Below are positions 2,185-12,521 of a stretch of 12,521 nt of DNA, one piece after another. Source of the DNA: JALSIF01 sp026981635 [NCBI: bacterium] (lineage in GTDB: Bacteria > 4484-113 > JALSIF01); contig JALSIF010000253.1 in assembly GCA_026981635.1 (NCBI GenBank), positions 1 through 12,521 of the forward strand, in the 5' to 3' direction. Made by a program: the position numbers and the translations under genes. Under the pieces are notes generated by a model that saw only the letters and a list, made by a program, of their open reading frames with translations, did no database searches and was not told the origin of the DNA. The number at the start of each line of letters is the position of its first letter. The stretch's first letter is position 1.

Positions 2185-2991
2185 TCAGACAAGCTTTGCA
2201 ACCAGCCAGATGAGCAGGATGAGGACCAGGAGCTCCACCGAGTTCTCCGCCAGCCAGGCGGCAAAGCCCTGGGGAAAGAGAGTGCGCCATAGGGTAGCAC
2301 CCTCCTCCGGCGCCGGCGGCTCCATGGCCAAGAGGATGCGCTCTCTGACCTGGTCGTAGTGGGGGCTTCGTGCCACCTCGGGGGGGGCCTGCTCAAGCAC
2401 CTCCAGCGCCCGCTCGGGGCGCTCAAGCTCAAGGTATGCCTCGGCCAGGGCGAGATGGGGGCGGATAAGGTGGGGGGCAAGGCGCACCGCCTGGGCAAAC
2501 TCGTTTAGCCCGTCCAGCAGGTAGCCCCGCCGGGCGGCGGCGAGACCGGCGTTGAACCGCTCCATGGCGGCACGCTCACCTTCGCGCAGATAGGCCACCC
2601 TGCCCCTAAGCAGGCGGACCGGCTCGCTCTCCTGATCCAGGCGAGAAAGCAGCTCCTCCGCCTCGTCCAGGCGGTGGAGGCCCACCAGCGCCTCGGCCAA
2701 AAGGAGCTGGGCCTCCTGCCTAAGCTCGTCCCACAACAGGGCGGCCCGGTCGGCAAGCTCCAGCACCTCCTCAAACTCGCCCCGGGCAAGCTCCAACCTG
2801 GCCTGGGCGATGAGGCCCCGCGCCTCGGCGGCAAGCTCCATAAAGGGGGACAGGTCGCCCCCGCACTCGGGGCACCTATCCGGCATGGGATGGGGCAGGC
2901 GGCTCCGGCAGAGGGGGCAGAAGTGGAGGGTGAGAGCTTCGCTTCTCTGCTCGGTCTCAATCGTCACCGTAAGGCTAATGCCCCCTTGCAA
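2185..2991 (-). CDS. Zinc-ribbon, TPR protein with C-terminal membrane anchor
   Basis: The 268-aa product has three parts. An N-terminal zinc ribbon is formed by C25-x2-C28 (CPLC) and C40-x2-C43 (CPEC). A helical TPR region covers about residues 55-215, with TPR-like signatures such as AEAYLELERPERALEVLEQA. A final hydrophobic helix of about 18 residues (VELLVLILLIWLVAKLV) ends the protein, as in tail-anchored proteins, so the bulk would face the cytoplasm. It is the last gene of the chaperone operon, 50 bases after dnaK. This position suggests a membrane-bound adaptor for the Hsp70, but that is inference; no named family was recognised. The start is uncertain: the TTG at 2991 has no clear ribosome binding site, while the GTG at 2967 has AAGGGGGC about 13 bases upstream. 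Either start keeps the zinc ribbon. Confidence 0.8.
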   Translation of the reverse strand: MQGGISLTVTIETEQRSEALTLHFCPLCRSRLPHPMPDRCPECGGDLSPFMELAAEARGLIAQARLELARGEFEEVLELADRAALLWDELRQEAQLLLAEALVGLHRLDEAEELLSRLDQESEPVRLLRGRVAYLREGERAAMERFNAGLAAARRGYLLDGLNEFAQAVRLAPHLIRPHLALAEAYLELERPERALEVLEQAPPEVARSPHYDQVRERILLAMEPPAPEEGATLWRTLFPQGFAAWLAENSVELLVLILLIWLVAKLV

Positions 2992-3041
2992 GTTGCCAAT
3001 CGCCTAGCCGGTTCCTTGGCTGGTTCCCGGGATGACTCAGG

Positions 3042-4787
<1,746 letters not shown>

Positions 4788-4815
4788 ATCTTTGGCCCGT
4801 CCGTTTGAGGTGTGT

Positions 4816-4830
4816 GACAGATTGCCTGTC
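4816..4830 (-). promoter_or_regulatory. Inverted repeat in the dnaK leader (operator or RNA hairpin)
   Basis: GACAG and CTGTC form a perfect 5-bp inverted repeat around the 5-base spacer ATTGC. The repeat lies between the predicted dnaK -10 box and the start codon, so it would fall in the first part of the transcript. It does not match the CIRCE element (TTAGCACTC-N9-GAGTGCTAA). It could be an operator or a short hairpin; function is unproven. Confidence 0.35.
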
Positions 4831-4843
4831 TACAAGGTGGATA

Positions 4844-4849
4844 ATTATA
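4844..4849 (-). promoter_or_regulatory. -10 box of a likely internal promoter for dnaK
   Basis: On the minus strand the hexamer is a perfect TATAAT, inside an AT-rich island in otherwise GC-rich sequence, 57 bases upstream of the dnaK ATG. The expected -35 position (about 4867-4872) reads GAGTGG, a poor match to TTGACA. If active, it would give dnaK and the zinc-ribbon TPR gene a start point independent of the TPR/J-like and grpE genes. An alternative sigma factor with a different -35 preference cannot be excluded. Confidence 0.5.
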
Positions 4850-4870
4850 CCTCAACTGTTAGCCTTCCAC

Positions 4871-5518
4871 TCACTGGCCCGGGTTGCGGTTGACCACCAC
4901 TTCGGTGGGGCGGAGCACCGCACCCTCAAACTGGTAGCCGGGCCTAAGCACCCTGATCACCCACTGATCGGGAAGGTCGTCGTGTTCCTCCCGGGCCACT
5001 GCCCGCTGGGTCTTGGGGTCAAAACGGTCGGTTAGGGGGAGGGGCTCAGCCCCCCAGGCCCTGAGCCTGCCCATGAGCAGGTCGCGGATGGCCATCAGCC
5101 CCTGCCACAGGGAGCCCTCCACCCGCTCCTCGCCCACGCTGGTAATCAGGCGGTCAAAGGCGTCAACGATGATGATCAGCTCCTCCACCGCCTGGCGGCG
5201 CCACTTCATCTCTCCCCCCATGAGCCTTTGGCTGAGGAGCTTGTTGGTCTCGGCAAGCTCGCGCCTCAGCTCCTCCAGGCCGATGGCCTCGGCGGGGGGC
5301 AGGCGCAGGGTCTTTAGCTGGTTGCTGAGGCGGAAGAACTCGGCCCTAAGCCGGCTGAGCTCGGTCTTAAGCTCATAAAGGGTGACGGCGGCTAGCTCGG
5401 CGTGATGCTCACCTGCCTCCCCGACAGGGCTGGCTTCGGACGGGGTCTCCAGCACCTCCCGGTAGGGCTCAAGCTGGTCCCACAGGCTCTCCTCGGCGGG
5501 TGCACCCTCAAGCTTCAT
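4871..5518 (-). CDS. grpE: GrpE-like nucleotide exchange factor (divergent)
   Basis: GrpE dimers open the DnaK nucleotide pocket and release ADP. The 215-aa product has an acidic, probably disordered N-terminus (1-45) and a long helical region (about 47-125) that fits the GrpE dimer stalk. A C-terminal beta domain follows with FDPKTQRAV (166-174), VLRPGYQFEGAVLRP (190-204) and VVVNR, which aligns with the FDP..HEAV and VLxxGYxxxDRVLRPAxV motifs of GrpE. Departures are Gly-Ala in place of Asp-Arg before VLRP, Gln in place of the usual His, and loss of the FxNYRKR signature of the helical region (GGEMKWRRQA instead). The ATG lies 6 bases after the stop of the TPR/J-like gene, and GGAGG ending 12 bases upstream falls inside that gene, so the two are probably translationally coupled. 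Position directly before dnaK supports the call. Confidence 0.88.
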   Translation of the reverse strand: MKLEGAPAEESLWDQLEPYREVLETPSEASPVGEAGEHHAELAAVTLYELKTELSRLRAEFFRLSNQLKTLRLPPAEAIGLEELRRELAETNKLLSQRLMGGEMKWRRQAVEELIIIVDAFDRLITSVGEERVEGSLWQGLMAIRDLLMGRLRAWGAEPLPLTDRFDPKTQRAVAREEHDDLPDQWVIRVLRPGYQFEGAVLRPTEVVVNRNPGQ

Positions 5519-5524
5519 CGCTGT

Positions 5525-8500
5525 CTATACCTCCGCCCACTCGCCCAGGTTTAGATTGAGGCTCAGGTTGGACCAAATCTCCTTTTCCACCTGATCGGGT
5601 GGGGAGGCCTCCCGTTCAAGGAAACCGTAGTCGGGAGGAGGTATCTCCACCTCAGGAGGCACCACCTCAAAGATGCCCGCCTGCCCCTCCCCGGCCACCT
5701 GGGCTCTGAGCTCCTTTACCGAGACGGGGTTGAAGGCAAACAGGTCCAGCACCTCGCGACGGGCGGGGCTGGTCAGGTTTTCGTAGGCCTCCTCTATGAG
5801 CATGAAGTCCTCTGCGTGGCGCTCGGGGTTGTAGATCTTGATCAGGCGGAAGTACTCCCGCTCCACCTGGGAGGGGCTGGCCCGCTTGGTTAGGCCGAGG
5901 ATGGCGTACATGCGGTGGACCCGGCGATATAGGTCTATCTTTGACTCTAGGTTGATGCGCTCAATGGAGTATTGGTCAAGGCCAGGAAGTTTCCTCAGGT
6001 CGCGGATGAGATCGTCCAGCGTCTTTAGCTTCCTGGCCAGTTCGGCGGGCACCCTTCCTCCCTCAACCTGCCGGTCAAGCAGGGTTTTGAGGCGTTCAAA
6101 GGTGGCCAGGGCATCCTCGTAGCGGCCGGCTGAGAGCTGGGCGATGGCCAGGTTCTGGACTATCTCGGGGTTGCGGTTGTCATATTTGAGGGCCTTTTTC
6201 CACTCCTCAATGGCTACCGTAAGCTGATCACGACGGGCAAGCTGGAAGGCGTTGAGATTGAGGGTGGCGGCGTATAGCTTGGCCAGGACATGGTGCATGT
6301 CCTTTAGCCTGCCCTGCTTCTCCCACAGCTTTCTCAGCTCCTCCCAGATCTCCATCGCCTCCTCGGCATAGCCCGCATCCAGGAAGGCCAGGCCCAGCTC
6401 CAGCAGGACTTGCTCGCGGCGCTGCTTGAAGTCGGGGTGGGCCTGGGAGATCTCTACCAGTCGCCGCCAGTAGTGCATGGCCACTTCCTTCTCCCCCCGC
6501 TCGGCGTGGAGCTTGCCCAGGTACCAGAGGAGGCGGGGGTCGTCCTGGCGATCCTTCTGCTTGAAGAGCTGATCAAGGATTTGCTGGGCCTTGTCTATGG
6601 TGCCGTCCTTGAGGTAGATGGCGGCGCCCACCAGGTCGTGGTCAGGAAGCTCCAGGCGGGCAAAACGCTGCTCACCCCGGGACTCGGTGTCCAGCAGAAA
6701 GGCACGGTAGAGCAGGGGATAGTCTCGCTCAAGCATTCCCCCGCGCTGGATTAGGTCGGCAAACACCTTCCAGGCCTTTTTCCACTGGGCGGCCTCCATG
6801 TAGCAGTAGGCCTGGTTGCGCTCAAGTTCAATGGGGTGCAGCCCCCACTGCAACTGCTGGTAGAAGACTACCGCCTGAGAATAAACCTTTAGCAGGTGGT
6901 AGGCGATGGCCAGGAAGTAGAGGTTGCGGGAACGCTCTGGGTCAATCTTGTAGGTGGCCTCGTAGAGAAGGATGGAGCGCTCGTAATCAGCGTTGAAGAA
7001 GGCGGGCTCGCTATAGGACCAGATCAGACGAGTGGCTAAGCCGATGAGATCCTGGTCTGCCCGAGAGCGGAAGTCACGGCCAGCAACCATTCGGGAGGCG
7101 GACTCATATTCCCCCTCCCTGAGCAGTTTGGCTGCCTGAATTAGCATGCACAAAGCGAGAAAGCGGTTCTCCGCCCGGCCGCGGGGGTTCAGTTCCAGGA
7201 TGCGCTCAAAGTGGCGCTCGGCGCCCTGGATGTCTCCCTCCCTAAGCATAATCACGCCCCGCTGGATCTCCACCCAGCGACGGAAGGCCTCCCCCCCGGG
7301 CTGTTCAAGGGCACGGCGGTAGAGGTCCTTGGCGGCGGAGAGATCACCCTTCAGCTCCAGGGCGTTGCCCCGTCGGATGGTGATCAGGGCGGGGGAGACC
7401 TCAAGGCCCATCTCCACCGACCTTTCCAACAGGCTGAGGGCGTTATCCGGCTCGCCCAGGGCAAGGTAGGCCACCGCCCGCCAATACTCCGCCCGGGGAC
7501 GCAGGCTCTCCTGCTTGATCTGGGAGAGGAGTTTCAGAGCCTCCTTGGCCTTGCCTTCCAGGATGAGCACCTTGGCCAAGCTGTAGCGGTTTAGGTCGGT
7601 ACCGGAGATCTCAAAGGCCACCCGGGCCGCCCGGGCCGCCTGCTCAAAGTTAAAGTGCTGCATGTAGAACTGGGTGATGTCGGAGAGGATTTCCACTCGG
7701 CCACTCGCCTTAAGCAGGTTCACCAGCCGGTCGGGGTCAGCATCAAAGGCGCGCACCACCATCTGGAGGGTGCGGCGAAGCAGTTTCTTCTGGCCAAGCA
7801 GTTCGGGCAGGAGACGGAAGGCGATCTCCGGGTGGGAGTGGAACTTGTCAATGTCAAAGGCCAGGTTGAGGATTTCCTTGACCGTGGGGTCCTTTTCCGG
7901 GTCGGCCCCTTCCTCAATAAATATCTGGGCCAGGATGCGCACCAGACGGGGGTTCTCGCGGACCTTGTCGCCCAGCTCCCGGTATAGCTCCAGGTAGGCC
8001 TCCTTGGCCTCCTGGTCGGTGAACTCAAGGTTGAGGAAGCAGCGGGCCTGGGCCAGCTTGAGGTCGCGGTGGCGCTTCTCCTGCTTGACCCGAGGAAGTA
8101 GAAAGTCAATCAGCCGCAGGGTCTTCTGATCAAACTGGGACTGACCAAGGCGCACGTCAAGCAGGATCTGGGCCAGCTCCACCTTGAAGGGGTGGCTGTC
8201 GGAAAGCAGGGCGAAGGCACGGTTGTAGACCTCAATGGCCTCCTCCGAGGTGTCCAGGGTCTGGGCATAGCTGTGGGCGAGAAGCTCAATGATCTCTGGA
8301 TCGGAGGGGTCGTAGCTGAGGGCGCGGTGGTATATACGGCGAGCTCCCTCGTCCACCCGCTTCTGGCGTACATATTCGCGGGAGAGCAACCAGTAGATCT
8401 TGTCGTCGGCCCGGTCGGGGAAGAGGTTGATGAACTCCTCATAGACCTTGGCGGCAAAGGGGGTCACCTCCTCAATGGCTACCAGGTGCTGCGTAAGCAG

Positions 8501-9520
8501 GTAGACCGCCCGGCGGGAGAGGTCGTGGTGGCGCAGGGCAGCCTCGTAGATCTGGCGGGCCTCCTCATCCAGGCGCTCCATCTCCACCAGGGTCTCGGCA
8601 TACTCCCCAATGAGCCTGCCCTCCCTGAGTCCCGCCTGATAGAGTCGCTCCGCCCATACCCCTTTGGGGAGGAACTTGCGGGTGCCGGAGAGCACCACAT
8701 CGGCCAGTTTTCTGAGCAGGTCCTTGTGCACCAGGCCCTGCTCCACCGCCTGCTCAATGAGGGGGGCGGAAAACTCGCTGATCTGACCGCGGCGGATCTT
8801 TTCGTTGGCATAGAGGCGAAGCACCTCGGGGTCCTCGTGCTCGCTTAGCCACTTCTCGTAGAAGCTGAGGGCAAAGTCGTCGCGGGCCTGGTGCTTCACA
8901 AGCACGTTGCGCAGCGTCTCGGCCAGCTTCTGGTCCTCGGGACGGTTTGACCAGGCTGCCTTGTAGACCGCAAGTGCCTTCTCGTCATCCCTACCCTGCT
9001 CAAGGTAGAAGCGGCAGATGAGCTCGCTTCCTCCCGTCCACATGGGGAACTCTTCCGCCGCCCGCTCAATGAGCTCAAAGTCATCCGGGGAGATATCCTC
9101 GCGCTTGACCAGCACCTTGGCCAGGTTGAGCAGGGTGCGGGTGTCCTTGGGGTCGTGGCGCAGCTTGCGGCGGAAGATCTCCTCGCTGTCGGGAGTAAAC
9201 AGCTTGTACTCGCTGATGAAGGCCAACGCCTCGCGCAGAACTTCGCTTCGGCCCAGCTGCTCCTCCAAAAGCACCGCCTCGCGGTAGGCGTGCAGGGCCT
9301 CTTCATACTTGCCCAGGCTTTTGAGGCCGCGGGCATAGAGCAGCCAGGCATCCAGCATCAGTTCCGGATCGGCCCCGGCACCGTCCTTCTCCCGCACCTC
9401 GGAGAAGAACTTTTCCAGCACCTCAATGGCCTGTTCGCTAAGTCCCCGCTCCAGCAGTCCGGAGGCTCGTCTGATGGCGGCCTGGGGGCCCCGGCTCAGA
9501 ATCTTGTCTAGCAGTCCCAT
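5525..9520 (-). CDS. Giant TPR protein with C-terminal J-like domain (HPD replaced by NPE)
   Basis: From the ATG at 9520 this is a 1331-aa protein; a GTG at 9532 adds four residues, but neither start has a strong ribosome binding site. Residue numbers below count from the GTG. Nearly the whole length, about 20-1190, is helical TPR-type repeat; clear units include YLALGEPDNALSLLERSVE and IAQLSAGRYEDALATFERLK. No signal peptide or membrane helix is seen, so it should be cytoplasmic. Residues 1208-1267 resemble a J domain: YAILGLTKRASPSQVEREYF, then LIKIYNPERH, then LIEEAYENL and SPARREVLD. The catalytic HPD tripeptide that stimulates Hsp70 ATPase is NPE (1235-1237), and the loop to helix III is short. 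An acidic, Pro-rich tail of about 65 residues follows. It is first in the operon with grpE, dnaK and a zinc-ribbon TPR gene, so it is probably a dedicated DnaK partner or scaffold. No named ortholog was recognised. Confidence 0.88.
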   Translation of the reverse strand: MGLLDKILSRGPQAAIRRASGLLERGLSEQAIEVLEKFFSEVREKDGAGADPELMLDAWLLYARGLKSLGKYEEALHAYREAVLLEEQLGRSEVLREALAFISEYKLFTPDSEEIFRRKLRHDPKDTRTLLNLAKVLVKREDISPDDFELIERAAEEFPMWTGGSELICRFYLEQGRDDEKALAVYKAAWSNRPEDQKLAETLRNVLVKHQARDDFALSFYEKWLSEHEDPEVLRLYANEKIRRGQISEFSAPLIEQAVEQGLVHKDLLRKLADVVLSGTRKFLPKGVWAERLYQAGLREGRLIGEYAETLVEMERLDEEARQIYEAALRHHDLSRRAVYLLTQHLVAIEEVTPFAAKVYEEFINLFPDRADDKIYWLLSREYVRQKRVDEGARRIYHRALSYDPSDPEIIELLAHSYAQTLDTSEEAIEVYNRAFALLSDSHPFKVELAQILLDVRLGQSQFDQKTLRLIDFLLPRVKQEKRHRDLKLAQARCFLNLEFTDQEAKEAYLELYRELGDKVRENPRLVRILAQIFIEEGADPEKDPTVKEILNLAFDIDKFHSHPEIAFRLLPELLGQKKLLRRTLQMVVRAFDADPDRLVNLLKASGRVEILSDITQFYMQHFNFEQAARAARVAFEISGTDLNRYSLAKVLILEGKAKEALKLLSQIKQESLRPRAEYWRAVAYLALGEPDNALSLLERSVEMGLEVSPALITIRRGNALELKGDLSAAKDLYRRALEQPGGEAFRRWVEIQRGVIMLREGDIQGAERHFERILELNPRGRAENRFLALCMLIQAAKLLREGEYESASRMVAGRDFRSRADQDLIGLATRLIWSYSEPAFFNADYERSILLYEATYKIDPERSRNLYFLAIAYHLLKVYSQAVVFYQQLQWGLHPIELERNQAYCYMEAAQWKKAWKVFADLIQRGGMLERDYPLLYRAFLLDTESRGEQRFARLELPDHDLVGAAIYLKDGTIDKAQQILDQLFKQKDRQDDPRLLWYLGKLHAERGEKEVAMHYWRRLVEISQAHPDFKQRREQVLLELGLAFLDAGYAEEAMEIWEELRKLWEKQGRLKDMHHVLAKLYAATLNLNAFQLARRDQLTVAIEEWKKALKYDNRNPEIVQNLAIAQLSAGRYEDALATFERLKTLLDRQVEGGRVPAELARKLKTLDDLIRDLRKLPGLDQYSIERINLESKIDLYRRVHRMYAILGLTKRASPSQVEREYFRLIKIYNPERHAEDFMLIEEAYENLTSPARREVLDLFAFNPVSVKELRAQVAGEGQAGIFEVVPPEVEIPPPDYGFLEREASPPDQVEKEIWSNLSLNLNLGEWAEV

Positions 9521-9553
9521 GATGAAAGGCACCAGATCGCTTGGCGCTAAGTG

Positions 9554-9568
9554 GCTAACTAGGTTAGC
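9554..9568 (-). promoter_or_regulatory. Perfect inverted repeat upstream of the chaperone operon, possible operator
   Basis: GCTAAC and GTTAGC form a perfect 6-bp inverted repeat with a 3-base spacer, 34 bases upstream of the ATG at 9520. On the minus strand it overlaps TGCTAACCT, which resembles a weak extended -10 element, with a TTGGAC further upstream that could serve as a -35 only at a non-ideal distance. The position suits a repressor site. The arms share TTAGC with CIRCE but the half-sites are arranged inside out and are much closer together, so HrcA control should not be assumed. Confidence 0.4.
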
Positions 9569-9594
9569 ACGGGCAGGGGACGGGGGTCCAACCC

Positions 9595-9622
9595 GGGGGA
9601 GGCTGTAAATCCCCCCTCCCCC
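9595..9622. repeat. GC-rich inverted repeat in the divergent control region
   Basis: GGGGGAGG (9595-9602) and CCTCCCCC (9615-9622) are perfect 8-bp inverted arms around a 12-base loop. The arms sit just upstream of the -10 box of the PilT/PilU gene and within the possible leader or promoter region of the chaperone operon. No T-run follows on either strand, so it does not look like a terminator. It may be a structural or protein-binding element, or simply a product of G/C-rich tracts. Confidence 0.35.
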
Positions 9623-9629
9623 AGGGCTG

Positions 9630-9635
9630 TATACT
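9630..9635 (+). promoter_or_regulatory. -10 box of the PilT/PilU gene promoter
   Basis: TATACT matches five of six positions of the sigma-70 consensus TATAAT and lies 53 bases before the ATG at 9689, giving a predicted transcript start near 9641-9643. The sequence at the usual -35 distance is not a recognisable TTGACA, so activation or another sigma factor may be involved. Confidence 0.5.
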
Positions 9636-9641
9636 CTGGTA

Positions 9642-9659
9642 GTAGGAGAGAGTTCCTAC
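9642..9659 (+). promoter_or_regulatory. Stem-loop at the predicted 5' end of the PilT/PilU gene mRNA
   Basis: GTAGGA (9642-9647) and TCCTAC (9654-9659) are perfect inverted arms. A further G-T wobble pair closes an AGAG tetraloop. The first base coincides with the predicted transcription start, so the mRNA would begin with a 7-pair hairpin. Such 5' hairpins can protect transcripts from decay; as DNA the same palindrome could be an operator. A strong ribosome binding site (AGGTGAGGAG, 9677-9686) follows. Confidence 0.4.
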
Positions 9660-9688
9660 ACACCTTACCCAAAGCGAGGTGAGGAGAG

Positions 9689-10858
9689 ATGGCGGTTGAC
9701 ATTGACGAAATGCTGGCCCTGGTCAAGGAGCGCAACGCCTCCGACCTGCACATCAGCGAGGGTCGGGTGCCGGCGCTCAGGCAGGAGGGTGACCTGGTCT
9801 ACACCGACTATCCGCCCCTCACGGCGGAGGAAATGGAGCAGATCTGCAAGAAGCTGCTCACCCCCAAGCGGGAGTACCTGCTGGAGGAAGAGAACGAGAT
9901 TGACTTTGCCTATGAGCTTGACGGGGTGGGCCGCTTCAGGGTGAACATCTTTCGCCAGCGGGGTCGGCTGGCCGCCGCCCTGCGGCTGGTGAAGAAGGAC
10001 ATCCTGAGCTTTGAGGAGCTGAACCTCCCCCTGGTGCTGGAGGAGATCGCCCTGGAGCAGAGGGGCATCGTGCTTATCACCGGAACCACCGGCTCGGGTA
10101 AGTCCACCACCCTGGCCACCATGATTGACTACATCAACCAGCGCCGGCCGGTCCACATCATCACCATTGAGGACCCCATTGAGTTCGTCTTTGAGGACAA
10201 GGAGGCGATTATCAACCAGCGTGAGCTTCACGTGGATACCAACAGCTTCGTGGACGCCATCCGCGCCGCCATGCGGGAGGACCCCGACGTGATCATGGTG
10301 GGGGAGATGCGTGACCGGGAGACGGTCACCGCCACCTTCCAGGCGGCACTGACCGGCCACCTGGTCTTTACCACCCTCCACACCCTGGACGTGCCCCGGA
10401 CCATCAACCGAATCATTGACTTCTATCCCGACGAGCTCCAGAAGCAGGCCCGCATCATGCTCTCTGAGACCATCCGGGCGATCATCTCCATGCGGCTTCT
10501 TCCCATGATGGGCGGGGGGCGCATCCCGGCCATGGAGATCATGCGCACCACCGGCCGGATCAGGGAGTACATCGCCGACCCGGAGAAGACCGACCTCATC
10601 CGCAAGGCGATGGAGGAGAACCTGCAGGACGGGATGATCACCTTTGACCTCTACCTGCTCAAGCTCTACAAGGAGGGCAAGATCAGCTACGAGACGGCGC
10701 TCAACGCGGCCAGCTCGCCCCACGACTTCAAGCTGCTTGAGCAGAAGGCGACCGAGATTGAGGTCAAGGGCCGGCGAGATCCCTTTGCCATCAACCGGGA
10801 GATCGCCGAGCGCCTGCAAAAGAGCGAAACCGGCCTTGAACCGGAGCGGGGGATTTAG
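9689..10858 (+). CDS. PilT/PilU-family type IV pilus retraction ATPase
   Basis: A 389-aa secretion-type hexameric ATPase that would power pilus retraction at the inner-membrane base of a type IV pilus. The N-terminal domain has SDLHISEG (18-25). The motor domain has Walker A GTTGSGKST (132-140), the Asp box ITIEDPIEF (158-166), Walker B VIMVGEMRD (201-209) with catalytic Glu206, and the His box HLVFTTLHT (224-232). The C-terminal part, with GMITFDLYLLKLYKEGKIS (315-333) and ASSPHDFKLL, looks more like PilU than PilT, and the classic PilT AIRNLIRE box is not intact. I therefore leave the symbol open. A strong ribosome binding site precedes the ATG. The gene is divergent from the chaperone operon, and a PilB/GspE-type gene begins about 1.3 kb downstream. 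Confidence 0.93.
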   Translation: MAVDIDEMLALVKERNASDLHISEGRVPALRQEGDLVYTDYPPLTAEEMEQICKKLLTPKREYLLEEENEIDFAYELDGVGRFRVNIFRQRGRLAAALRLVKKDILSFEELNLPLVLEEIALEQRGIVLITGTTGSGKSTTLATMIDYINQRRPVHIITIEDPIEFVFEDKEAIINQRELHVDTNSFVDAIRAAMREDPDVIMVGEMRDRETVTATFQAALTGHLVFTTLHTLDVPRTINRIIDFYPDELQKQARIMLSETIRAIISMRLLPMMGGGRIPAMEIMRTTGRIREYIADPEKTDLIRKAMEENLQDGMITFDLYLLKLYKEGKISYETALNAASSPHDFKLLEQKATEIEVKGRRDPFAINREIAERLQKSETGLEPERGI

Positions 10859-10919: not shown

Positions 10920-11459
10920 TTATGGACCGAACACAATGAGCAGGGTGCCCAGGATGATGAGGACCCAGGGGAGGTCGTGGGGGGAGCCGGTGGCAAAGAG
11001 GGCTATGCCGGCCCCCACCAGTCCACCCCCCAGAGAGATCACCAAGCGGCCCGCCAGAGGCGTGCGGTATAGGCTCGCCTCCTCCCCTGGGGTCAGCGTC
11101 TTACGATAGGGCTTGGGCTTGCGGACGAGGGGGTCCTGGAGCAGGGGGTCAAAGTCTTCAATGAAAAATTTGGGTGCCCCCCGCTCAAAGCCCACCTTCT
11201 CCTGGGCGATGGCCTGGGTGAGGATGAGCTGCTCAATCTCTCTCTTAGTTAGGGGACGGCCCAGCCTACGGTCGTAGGGGGCACCGTAGTACTCCGGGTA
11301 GGAGAGGCGGCGGGGATCAATGGCCTGGTGGGTAAGGCTGCTAGGCTTCTCGCGCCGCTTGGGAGTAATCAAATTGAGCAGCCTCCTGCCCGGAGAGCTT
11401 TTAGCTTTGGCCGGGGGCGGCAAGGAAGGGTCTTGCTTAGGCTGCCTCAAACTACCCAA
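10920..11459 (-). CDS. Small membrane protein with two C-terminal helices, function unknown
   Basis: The 179-aa product is not recognised. Residues 1-50 are basic and rich in Pro, Ser and Lys, likely disordered. Residues 50-125 hold a Tyr/Pro-rich segment (RRLSYPEYYGAPYDRRLG), a helix (LTKREIEQLILTQAIAQE) and FFIEDFDPLLQDPL. Two hydrophobic helices follow, about 137-157 (Gly-rich) and 163-178, ending two residues before the stop. This predicts a membrane hairpin with a cytoplasmic N-terminal domain. The start is a TTG with AGG five bases upstream; an in-frame TTG three codons later is an alternative. The gene is convergent with the PilT/PilU gene (61-base AT-richer gap without a clear terminator) and divergent from apt (78-base gap). 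Reality as a gene is supported by good spacing to both neighbours, a composition typical of protein and clear helices, but not by homology. Confidence 0.65.
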   Translation of the reverse strand: MGSLRQPKQDPSLPPPAKAKSSPGRRLLNLITPKRREKPSSLTHQAIDPRRLSYPEYYGAPYDRRLGRPLTKREIEQLILTQAIAQEKVGFERGAPKFFIEDFDPLLQDPLVRKPKPYRKTLTPGEEASLYRTPLAGRLVISLGGGLVGAGIALFATGSPHDLPWVLIILGTLLIVFGP

Positions 11460-12088: not shown

Positions 12089-12206
12089 GGAGGGCAAGTG
12101 GGAACTTTGTGGCGTGGGGAGGGTCTAGAAGAATCTGCCCGGCGCCAGGCTCGGGTGCTCAGAGAACACTCCACGGGCGTCCGGGTGAGTGAGGAGCGAA
12201 CCCGCC

Positions 12207-12521
12207 ATGCAAAAGAAACTTGGTGACATCCTAGTTGAGGAGGGTGTGATCTCTCTGGACCAGCTGCAGGCCGCCCTGGACCGGCAGCGGGAGACCGGCG
12301 AGCGCCTGGGAAAGGTCATCGTGGAGATGGAGATGGCCACCGAGGACGACATCCAGAAGGCGCTGGCCAAGCAGCTCAACGTGGAGATGGTGGACCTCTA
12401 CGAGGAGCCCATTGACCAGGAGGTGCTGGAGCTGGTCACCCCGGAGATGATCAAACGCCACCAGGCCATCCCGGTCCGCTTTGAGGACGAGAACACCCTG
12501 CTGGTGGCGATGGTGGACCCC
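12207..12521 (+). CDS. PilB/GspE-type assembly ATPase, N-terminal MshEN domain (3' end outside window)
   Basis: The first 105 codons of a gene cut by the right edge. The ATG follows GAGGAG (12191-12196). The visible part is the N-terminal domain of type II secretion and type IV pilus assembly ATPases (GspE, PilB, MshE), which drives pilin polymerisation or secretion. Two tandem 24-residue blocks match the c-di-GMP-binding MshEN pattern RLGxxLxxxGxxxxxxLxxxLxxQ. The first (residues 4-27) keeps Leu5, Gly6, Leu9, Gly13, Leu20, Leu24 and Gln27, with Lys for the first Arg. The second (33-56) keeps Arg33, Leu34, Gly35, Leu53 and Gln56, with Ile, Glu and Ile at the other places. It probably pairs with the retraction ATPase gene at 9689. 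The ATPase core is not in view, so PilB, GspE or MshE cannot be separated. Confidence 0.88.
   Translation, partial: MQKKLGDILVEEGVISLDQLQAALDRQRETGERLGKVIVEMEMATEDDIQKALAKQLNVEMVDLYEEPIDQEVLELVTPEMIKRHQAIPVRFEDENTLLVAMVDP

Follow-up and report, generated by a model that had tools for sequence, protein, structure and literature searches.

A four-gene operon of TPR/J-like, GrpE, DnaK and zinc-ribbon proteins in candidate phylum UBP7 and its counterparts in other bacterial lineages

Heat-shock protein 70 (Hsp70) machines typically combine a DnaK with a J-domain protein and a GrpE. We describe here a four-gene operon in which a giant tetratricopeptide repeat (TPR) protein ending in a J-like domain is encoded next to a GrpE, a second DnaK and a zinc-ribbon/TPR protein. 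The window, i.e. the whole stretch of DNA analysed, is the entire 12,521-base contig JALSIF010000253.1 (C253) of a draft genome of 1.75 Mb that is 85% complete. The operon consists of the following features.

2185..2991, minus strand: zinc-ribbon and TPR protein with a C-terminal hydrophobic segment, at most 268 amino acids (CPLC...CPEC, TPR_19, hydropathy)
3042..4787, minus strand: second DnaK, 581 amino acids (Pfam HSP70, E 5e-191; grouped apart from ordinary DnaKs in trees)
4871..5518, minus strand: GrpE-family nucleotide exchange factor, 215 amino acids (Pfam GrpE, E 7.3e-18)
5525..9520, minus strand: giant TPR protein with a C-terminal J-like domain, 1331 amino acids (open reading frame, Pfam TPR and DnaJ)
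about 5744-5911, minus strand: J-like domain within the giant TPR protein, with NPE where HPD is expected

The four genes lie on one strand with gaps of 6, 83 and 50 bases, values from the first-pass annotation that were exact on recount, and this spacing suggests co-transcription. The giant reading frame starts with ATG at 9520, and a GTG further upstream at 9532 is also open; the start of the zinc-ribbon/TPR gene is uncertain (TTG at 2991 or the in-frame GTG at 2967). Every component falls within a known superfamily. The giant protein has many Pfam TPR matches and a DnaJ-domain match above the cut-off at residues 1203-1258 (E 1.5e-9). The GrpE covers positions 12-164 of the 165 in PF01025 (E 7e-18) and falls below the cut-off in all 21 NCBIfam GrpE models listed. 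The DnaK matches PF00012 HSP70 over the whole protein, passes the NCBIfam PRK00290 DnaK cut-off, scores 704 bits with NF001413 (cut-off 648) and stays under the TIGR02350 cut-off (692.8 against 822.55). In the zinc-ribbon/TPR protein, Pfam recognises TPR_19 (E 3e-12) and, below its cut-off, DZR (E 0.004).

The same genome has a separate ordinary set, as was found when a second dnaK-dnaJ locus was sought. Contig C131 carries a DnaK, an Hsp20 and a GrpE truncated at the contig end, and contig C92 carries an HrcA, at the contig end, adjoining a zinc-type DnaJ; the Hsp20, GrpE, DnaJ and HrcA assignments were confirmed by Pfam. The operon DnaK is 52% identical to the ordinary DnaK of this genome, and the operon GrpE is barely alignable to the ordinary GrpE fragment. 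Like the E. coli-type DnaK-DnaJ-GrpE system, the operon has a DnaK with a full-length HSP70 domain and a GrpE. It differs in that its DnaK groups separately, has a shorter C-terminus (581 amino acids compared with about 615 in the ordinary one) and has a linker changed from VLLLD to VVVD or VTIVD, while the GrpE has diverged and a TPR/J-like protein lacking HPD stands in for DnaJ.

Conservation of the operon was assessed in 10 genomes of the class (candidate phylum UBP7), namely the window genome and nine relatives, and the counts cover related sequences rather than independent events. The giant protein occurs in all 10, at 34-36% identity in the nine relatives. GrpE, DnaK and the zinc-ribbon protein adjoin its gene in identical order in every genome (the giant gene of G008 runs off its contig), and the neighbourhood, whose conservation had been proposed as a check on the first-pass annotation, also recurs outside the class. 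With starts as called, the TPR and GrpE genes overlap by 1-4 bases in 7/10 genomes and by 16 bases in L108; they abut in L112 and lie 6 bases apart in the window. Upstream neighbours vary by family: hrcA-dnaJ in family f2, divergent groES-groEL in G002, pilT in the window, a LiaF-like gene in L106, and a PspC gene in L109 of family f4. The hrcA-dnaJ pair lies directly upstream in all four f2 genomes (G001, G005, G007 and G008), with HrcA identified by Pfam in G001, G005 and G007, and DnaJ by Pfam in two of these and by similarity in G001; in G008, a separate contig holds the beginning of the giant gene together with HrcA and DnaJ. In the window, L105, L106, L107, L109 and L112, neither dnaJ nor hrcA was detected next to the operon. 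Hydropathy indicates a membrane-like segment in the zinc-ribbon protein of the window (2.19 at residue 250), L105 and L107, and none in the remaining seven of the 10 class proteins, which limits an earlier description of this protein as a membrane adaptor to those three loci. An N-terminal motif, DF..E.Y/H, is present in nine of the 10 operon GrpEs and missing from that of the window; it is possibly a contact to the TPR protein.

Outside the class, a profile search of 385 genomes with the giant protein found matches in 31 at E 1e-10, including 21 that are not class members; loci were opened from ten of these 21 genomes, plus G169. The ten opened loci encode giant proteins (L151-L153), weaker long proteins (L154, L155) and short or split J-TPR proteins (L156-L160), and in L151 a GrpE directly follows the giant gene. 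Searching with the short type gave matches in 62/385 genomes at E 1e-15, mostly partial and of TPR type, with strong, near full-length matches in G308, G021, G137, G274, G169, G289 and G152. J-TPR, GrpE and DnaK genes are adjacent in 8/8 loci outside the class (L156-L160, and L219-L221 of G169, G289 and G152). The full set, with the zinc-ribbon TPR gene downstream and the gene order of the window, is present at four of these loci (L159, L160, L220 and L221). A further opened locus, L222 of G191, has no J-like domain. The short type is widespread in the class of G308 and G021, which is very probably Sumerlaeota: 34 of 39 genomes in the class of G308 match at E 1e-60. Among 27 new loci from that class, opened with flanks of about 1.5 kb, DnaK lies beside J-TPR in 24 and GrpE in 22; four further matching genomes yielded no locus. 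Giant TPR-J proteins occur in 4/4 genomes of the phylum of G254, which includes G118 and G381. Plasmid records yielded only TPR proteins with partial matches. Among the open-licence literature matches listed, no title or opening of an abstract describes this module.

The HPD tripeptide is regarded as the hallmark of a functional J-domain. The domain in the giant protein aligns with solved J-domains across this motif (best 2dn9, E 2.4e-5), with NPE opposite HPD and a shorter loop after it, and is termed J-like because of this substitution. It belongs to a conserved family that the first-pass annotation had not recognised. A J-like domain was detected in 50 proteins from 51 loci scanned, L152-L155 among them; 49 of these, the window protein included, show xPE, where x is N, D, P, S, T or G, and HPD occurs in none. 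L250 is the sole case of DQE. The class has 35 J-domain matches in total; apart from the 10 operon proteins, the remaining 25 all carry HPD. An AlphaFold model of the last 430 residues of the giant protein, built from nine sequences, has a mean pLDDT (predicted local distance difference test) of 86 and consists of a TPR array that leads into a J-like hairpin, with the xPE motif located in the loop that joins helices 315-328 and 335-348. Among the structural matches listed for this model, most are generic TPR superhelices (best Z 15.1, LGN), and the J part was hardly covered. TPR and J-like parts occur as TPR-J, as J-TPR and as separate reading frames (L158); by the fusion argument, their presence in both fused orders and as split genes suggests that the two parts act together.

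The partner DnaKs form a group of their own. A careful tree of 50 DnaKs, midpoint rooted, excluded L213, L214 and L218 (partial matches inside long reading frames) and matches shorter than 480 amino acids, including the ordinary DnaK fragment of G008. One group, with support of 99/96, contains the 10 UBP7 operon DnaKs, eight DnaKs of J-TPR operons and the four DnaKs of G254, G118, G381 and G231, genomes in which a long TPR-J protein is encoded without linkage to the dnaK; 27 ordinary or other DnaKs lie on the opposite side of the supported branch. L158 and L207 are on long branches. When the four best-scoring of 12 Hsp70s from G036, a Myxococcus-like genome by its GltE match of 772 bits, were added in a quick tree, the group was kept (95) and those four fell outside it. 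A DnaK beside a GrpE match in G086 (L031) branches just outside the supported group; G086 is not among the genomes matched by the giant-protein search at E 1e-10.

DnaK residues around the J-docking site and near a GrpE contact also differ within this group. At position 31, which adjoins the GrpE contact G32, 26 of the 27 comparison DnaKs carry E; R takes its place in 14/14 UBP7 and giant-type DnaKs, and L or V in 7/7 short-type DnaKs. Short J-TPR DnaKs, L158 excepted, have N170D, D393H and an insert of about 10 residues before the linker in 7/7 cases, while none of the 27 comparison DnaKs has N170D or D393H and one has E at position 393. The UBP7 DnaKs keep N170 and D393 and have valine-rich linkers (VTIVD in the window). 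R167 is retained in all 50 aligned DnaKs. As with the operon counts, these tallies are drawn from related sequences and do not represent independent events. According to two E. coli studies, R167 of DnaK pairs with D393 and D481, H33 of the HPD motif touches the linker at L391, and D35 touches R167 and Q378 (PMC8215388, PMC7289447).

These residues can be read in two ways. Tentatively, the module may represent an ancient Hsp70 machine in which the xPE J-domain genuinely activates a DnaK that has co-evolved with it, and a TPR client scaffold is either joined to this activator in one protein or acts as its partner. Its docking chemistry would have been rebuilt by loss of the His and a change of D to E, together with N170D and D393H in one branch. 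The proline and acidic residue kept in 49 of 50 J-like domains, together with the universal R167, suggest that contact with DnaK is retained, and a designed J-analogue without HPD is reported to be active (PMC13254874). With similarly limited probability, the J-like domain could be a non-stimulating tether or restraint of the second DnaK, comparable to Pam16, while an ordinary HPD-containing DnaJ provides stimulation. HPD is missing from all 50 J-like/TPR proteins, and substitution of its H or D abolishes stimulation in the systems tested in PMC8215388. HPD-type DnaJs are also available in 10/10 class genomes, directly upstream of the operon in the four f2 genomes. The retained proline, acidic residue and R167 argue against a Pam16-type role, and no adjacent dnaJ was found at the window locus or the five class loci listed with it above. 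Such a role concerns one step only and is compatible with the rest of the interpretation.

Regulation bears on whether the operon is simply a copy of an ordinary HrcA-controlled heat-shock operon into which TPR genes were inserted, with no special machine. We regard this as unlikely, even though hrcA-dnaJ lies directly upstream in the four relatives of family f2 and groES-groEL is divergent in G002. TPR/J-like, GrpE and DnaK genes stay linked in far-apart lineages, hrcA and dnaJ were not found alongside at the six loci named above, and both the DnaK grouping and the residue changes within it are specific. The window differs from the canonical hrcA-grpE-dnaK-dnaJ operon in that HrcA and zinc-type DnaJ were not found in it by Pfam, and no match to CIRCE (controlling inverted repeat of chaperone expression) with up to three mismatches was present. 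The first-pass annotation was accurate on this absence for the window itself, but the hrcA-dnaJ pair upstream in all four relatives of one family means that lack of HrcA and DnaJ is no hallmark of the system. No perfect CIRCE occurred in the 160 loci scanned. A relaxed scan (18 sources, plus strand, at most five mismatches) gave two matches, in L107 (five mismatches) and L105 (four). The L105 site (9505-9531) lies just past a TTGACA/TATAAT promoter before groES of G002; since it sits on the groES promoter it marks groESL, of which it is likely the HrcA operator. The best CIRCE-like sites upstream of the operon (window, L106, L107, L109 and L112) or before hrcA (L104, L108 and L110) are no better than those of many shuffles, and no inverted repeat common to the pre-operon and pre-hrcA stretches was seen. 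HrcA/CIRCE control of the operon was rejected because its best candidate sites match shuffles and the L105 match belongs to groESL.

The remainder of the window contains the following features, with apt also among the flanking genes.

2-676: FliH/SctL-like coiled-coil protein, extending beyond the contig edge (Pfam/NCBIfam)
753-2126: FixC-like electron-transfer oxidoreductase (FAD_oxidored and ETFQO_UQ-bd matches)
9521..9688, no strand: intergenic region between the divergent operon and pilT, containing an 11-nucleotide inverted repeat
9689-10858: pilT, divergent from the operon
10920-11459, minus strand: 179-amino-acid open reading frame with no Pfam or NCBIfam match, which may be a membrane protein or spurious
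12189-12521: PilB/MshE-type N-terminus, downstream of apt

The inverted repeat at 9592-9625 is 91% complementary. No sigma-70-like promoter or CIRCE match was found in 9521-9688, and promoter and terminator consensus matches in the window are about as numerous as in shuffles. The divergent pilT and the PilB-type N-terminus 2.7 kb from the operon raise the possibility that this extra Hsp70 set is linked to type IV pili and the export of polysaccharide, in the manner of DnaK1/DnaJ3 in Nostoc or SglK in Myxococcus. PMC9239167 describes an extra Nostoc DnaK that has such a special role and works with GrpE, and PMC8265645 describes SglK as an extra DnaK with a special role that affects S-motility. 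PilT and PilB-N match none of the 22 other module loci (7-19 kb each), however, the four G036 Hsp70s noted above fall outside the operon DnaK group, and the grpE-dnaK pair of G036 has no J-TPR gene beside it. Coupling to pili is therefore very improbable, and a type IV pilus role was rejected as a general explanation. Near other copies of the module, Pfam identifies ribosome-related genes: S16, RimM and TrmD in L151, S16 and TrmD in L160, and TrmD in L159. The neighbours of the tested relatives (hrcA-dnaJ, groESL and LiaF- or PspC-like genes, with ribosome-related genes in L151, L159 and L160) favour a general protein-quality role, i.e. a second protein-quality machine in which the TPR protein would select clients, over a pilus or single-pathway device.

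At the level of sequence comparison, the distinctness of the module, its conserved linkage, the xPE motif and the matching DnaK interface changes in one branch are established. We consider it probable, with good confidence, that these genes encode an old, complete and self-contained second Hsp70 machine, passed on as one unit and maintained in addition to the ordinary set, with the TPR protein bringing DnaK to clients. The earlier proposal, in which a dedicated scaffold and exchange factor serve a specialised Hsp70 machine, gains from the conserved neighbourhood and the separate ordinary set; absence of HrcA and DnaJ and the membrane adaptor do not hold as general features. What recurs is TPR, J-like, GrpE and DnaK, and other neighbours vary. 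Several observations weigh against this interpretation. No neighbouring zinc-ribbon gene was found for L156, L157 or L219, and L152-L155 showed neither GrpE nor DnaK next to them. DnaK does not adjoin the long TPR gene in G254, G118, G381 or G231, and within the short flanks of the 27 Sumerlaeota-type loci, five (L239, L240, L245, L246 and L253) show no GrpE, three of them no DnaK either. N170 and D393 are kept in UBP7 and giant-type DnaKs, that of the window included, so the docking-site change is not universal. Because HPD substitutions abolish stimulation elsewhere, the J-like domain may also fail to activate DnaK.

Known systems share parts of this arrangement. In eukaryotic P58(IPK)/DNAJC3, a TPR array is followed by a C-terminal J-domain, as in the window protein, and P58(IPK) structures are among the Foldseek matches of the model, with the match dominated by generic TPR similarity. 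Mitochondrial Pam16 (Tim16), a component of the Hsp70 motor, has a J-fold without HPD, like the domain described here, and is not known to have a TPR array; unlike Pam16, the operon proteins keep the proline and acidic residue. The module resembles SglK/GrpS and cyanobacterial DnaK1/DnaJ3/GrpE in having an additional DnaK, and differs in that the four Myxococcus-like Hsp70s lie outside its group and a pilus neighbourhood is not conserved. DNAJC7 likewise has a TPR array and then a C-terminal J-domain (PMC13254874); compared with DNAJC7 and P58(IPK), the window array is much longer, HPD is missing and the gene lies beside a dedicated grpE and dnaK. In the second Hsp70 machine proposed here, the TPR superhelix would bind a client or partner protein and the J-like domain would dock beneath the linker of its own DnaK. 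The E of xPE, which occupies the place of the D of HPD, would reach the conserved R167 with the His lacking, and the diverged GrpE would reset the operon DnaK. The zinc-ribbon/TPR protein may serve as an accessory adaptor, with a membrane segment in some lineages.

With an xPE family spread across several bacterial lineages, naturally paired J-like domains and DnaKs can be used to test how J-domains and Hsp70s recognise each other. If the xPE J-domain truly activates its DnaK, the rule that HPD is indispensable would be broken. These findings suggest that some candidate phyla may run two distinct Hsp70 machines, one of them organised around a very large TPR scaffold.

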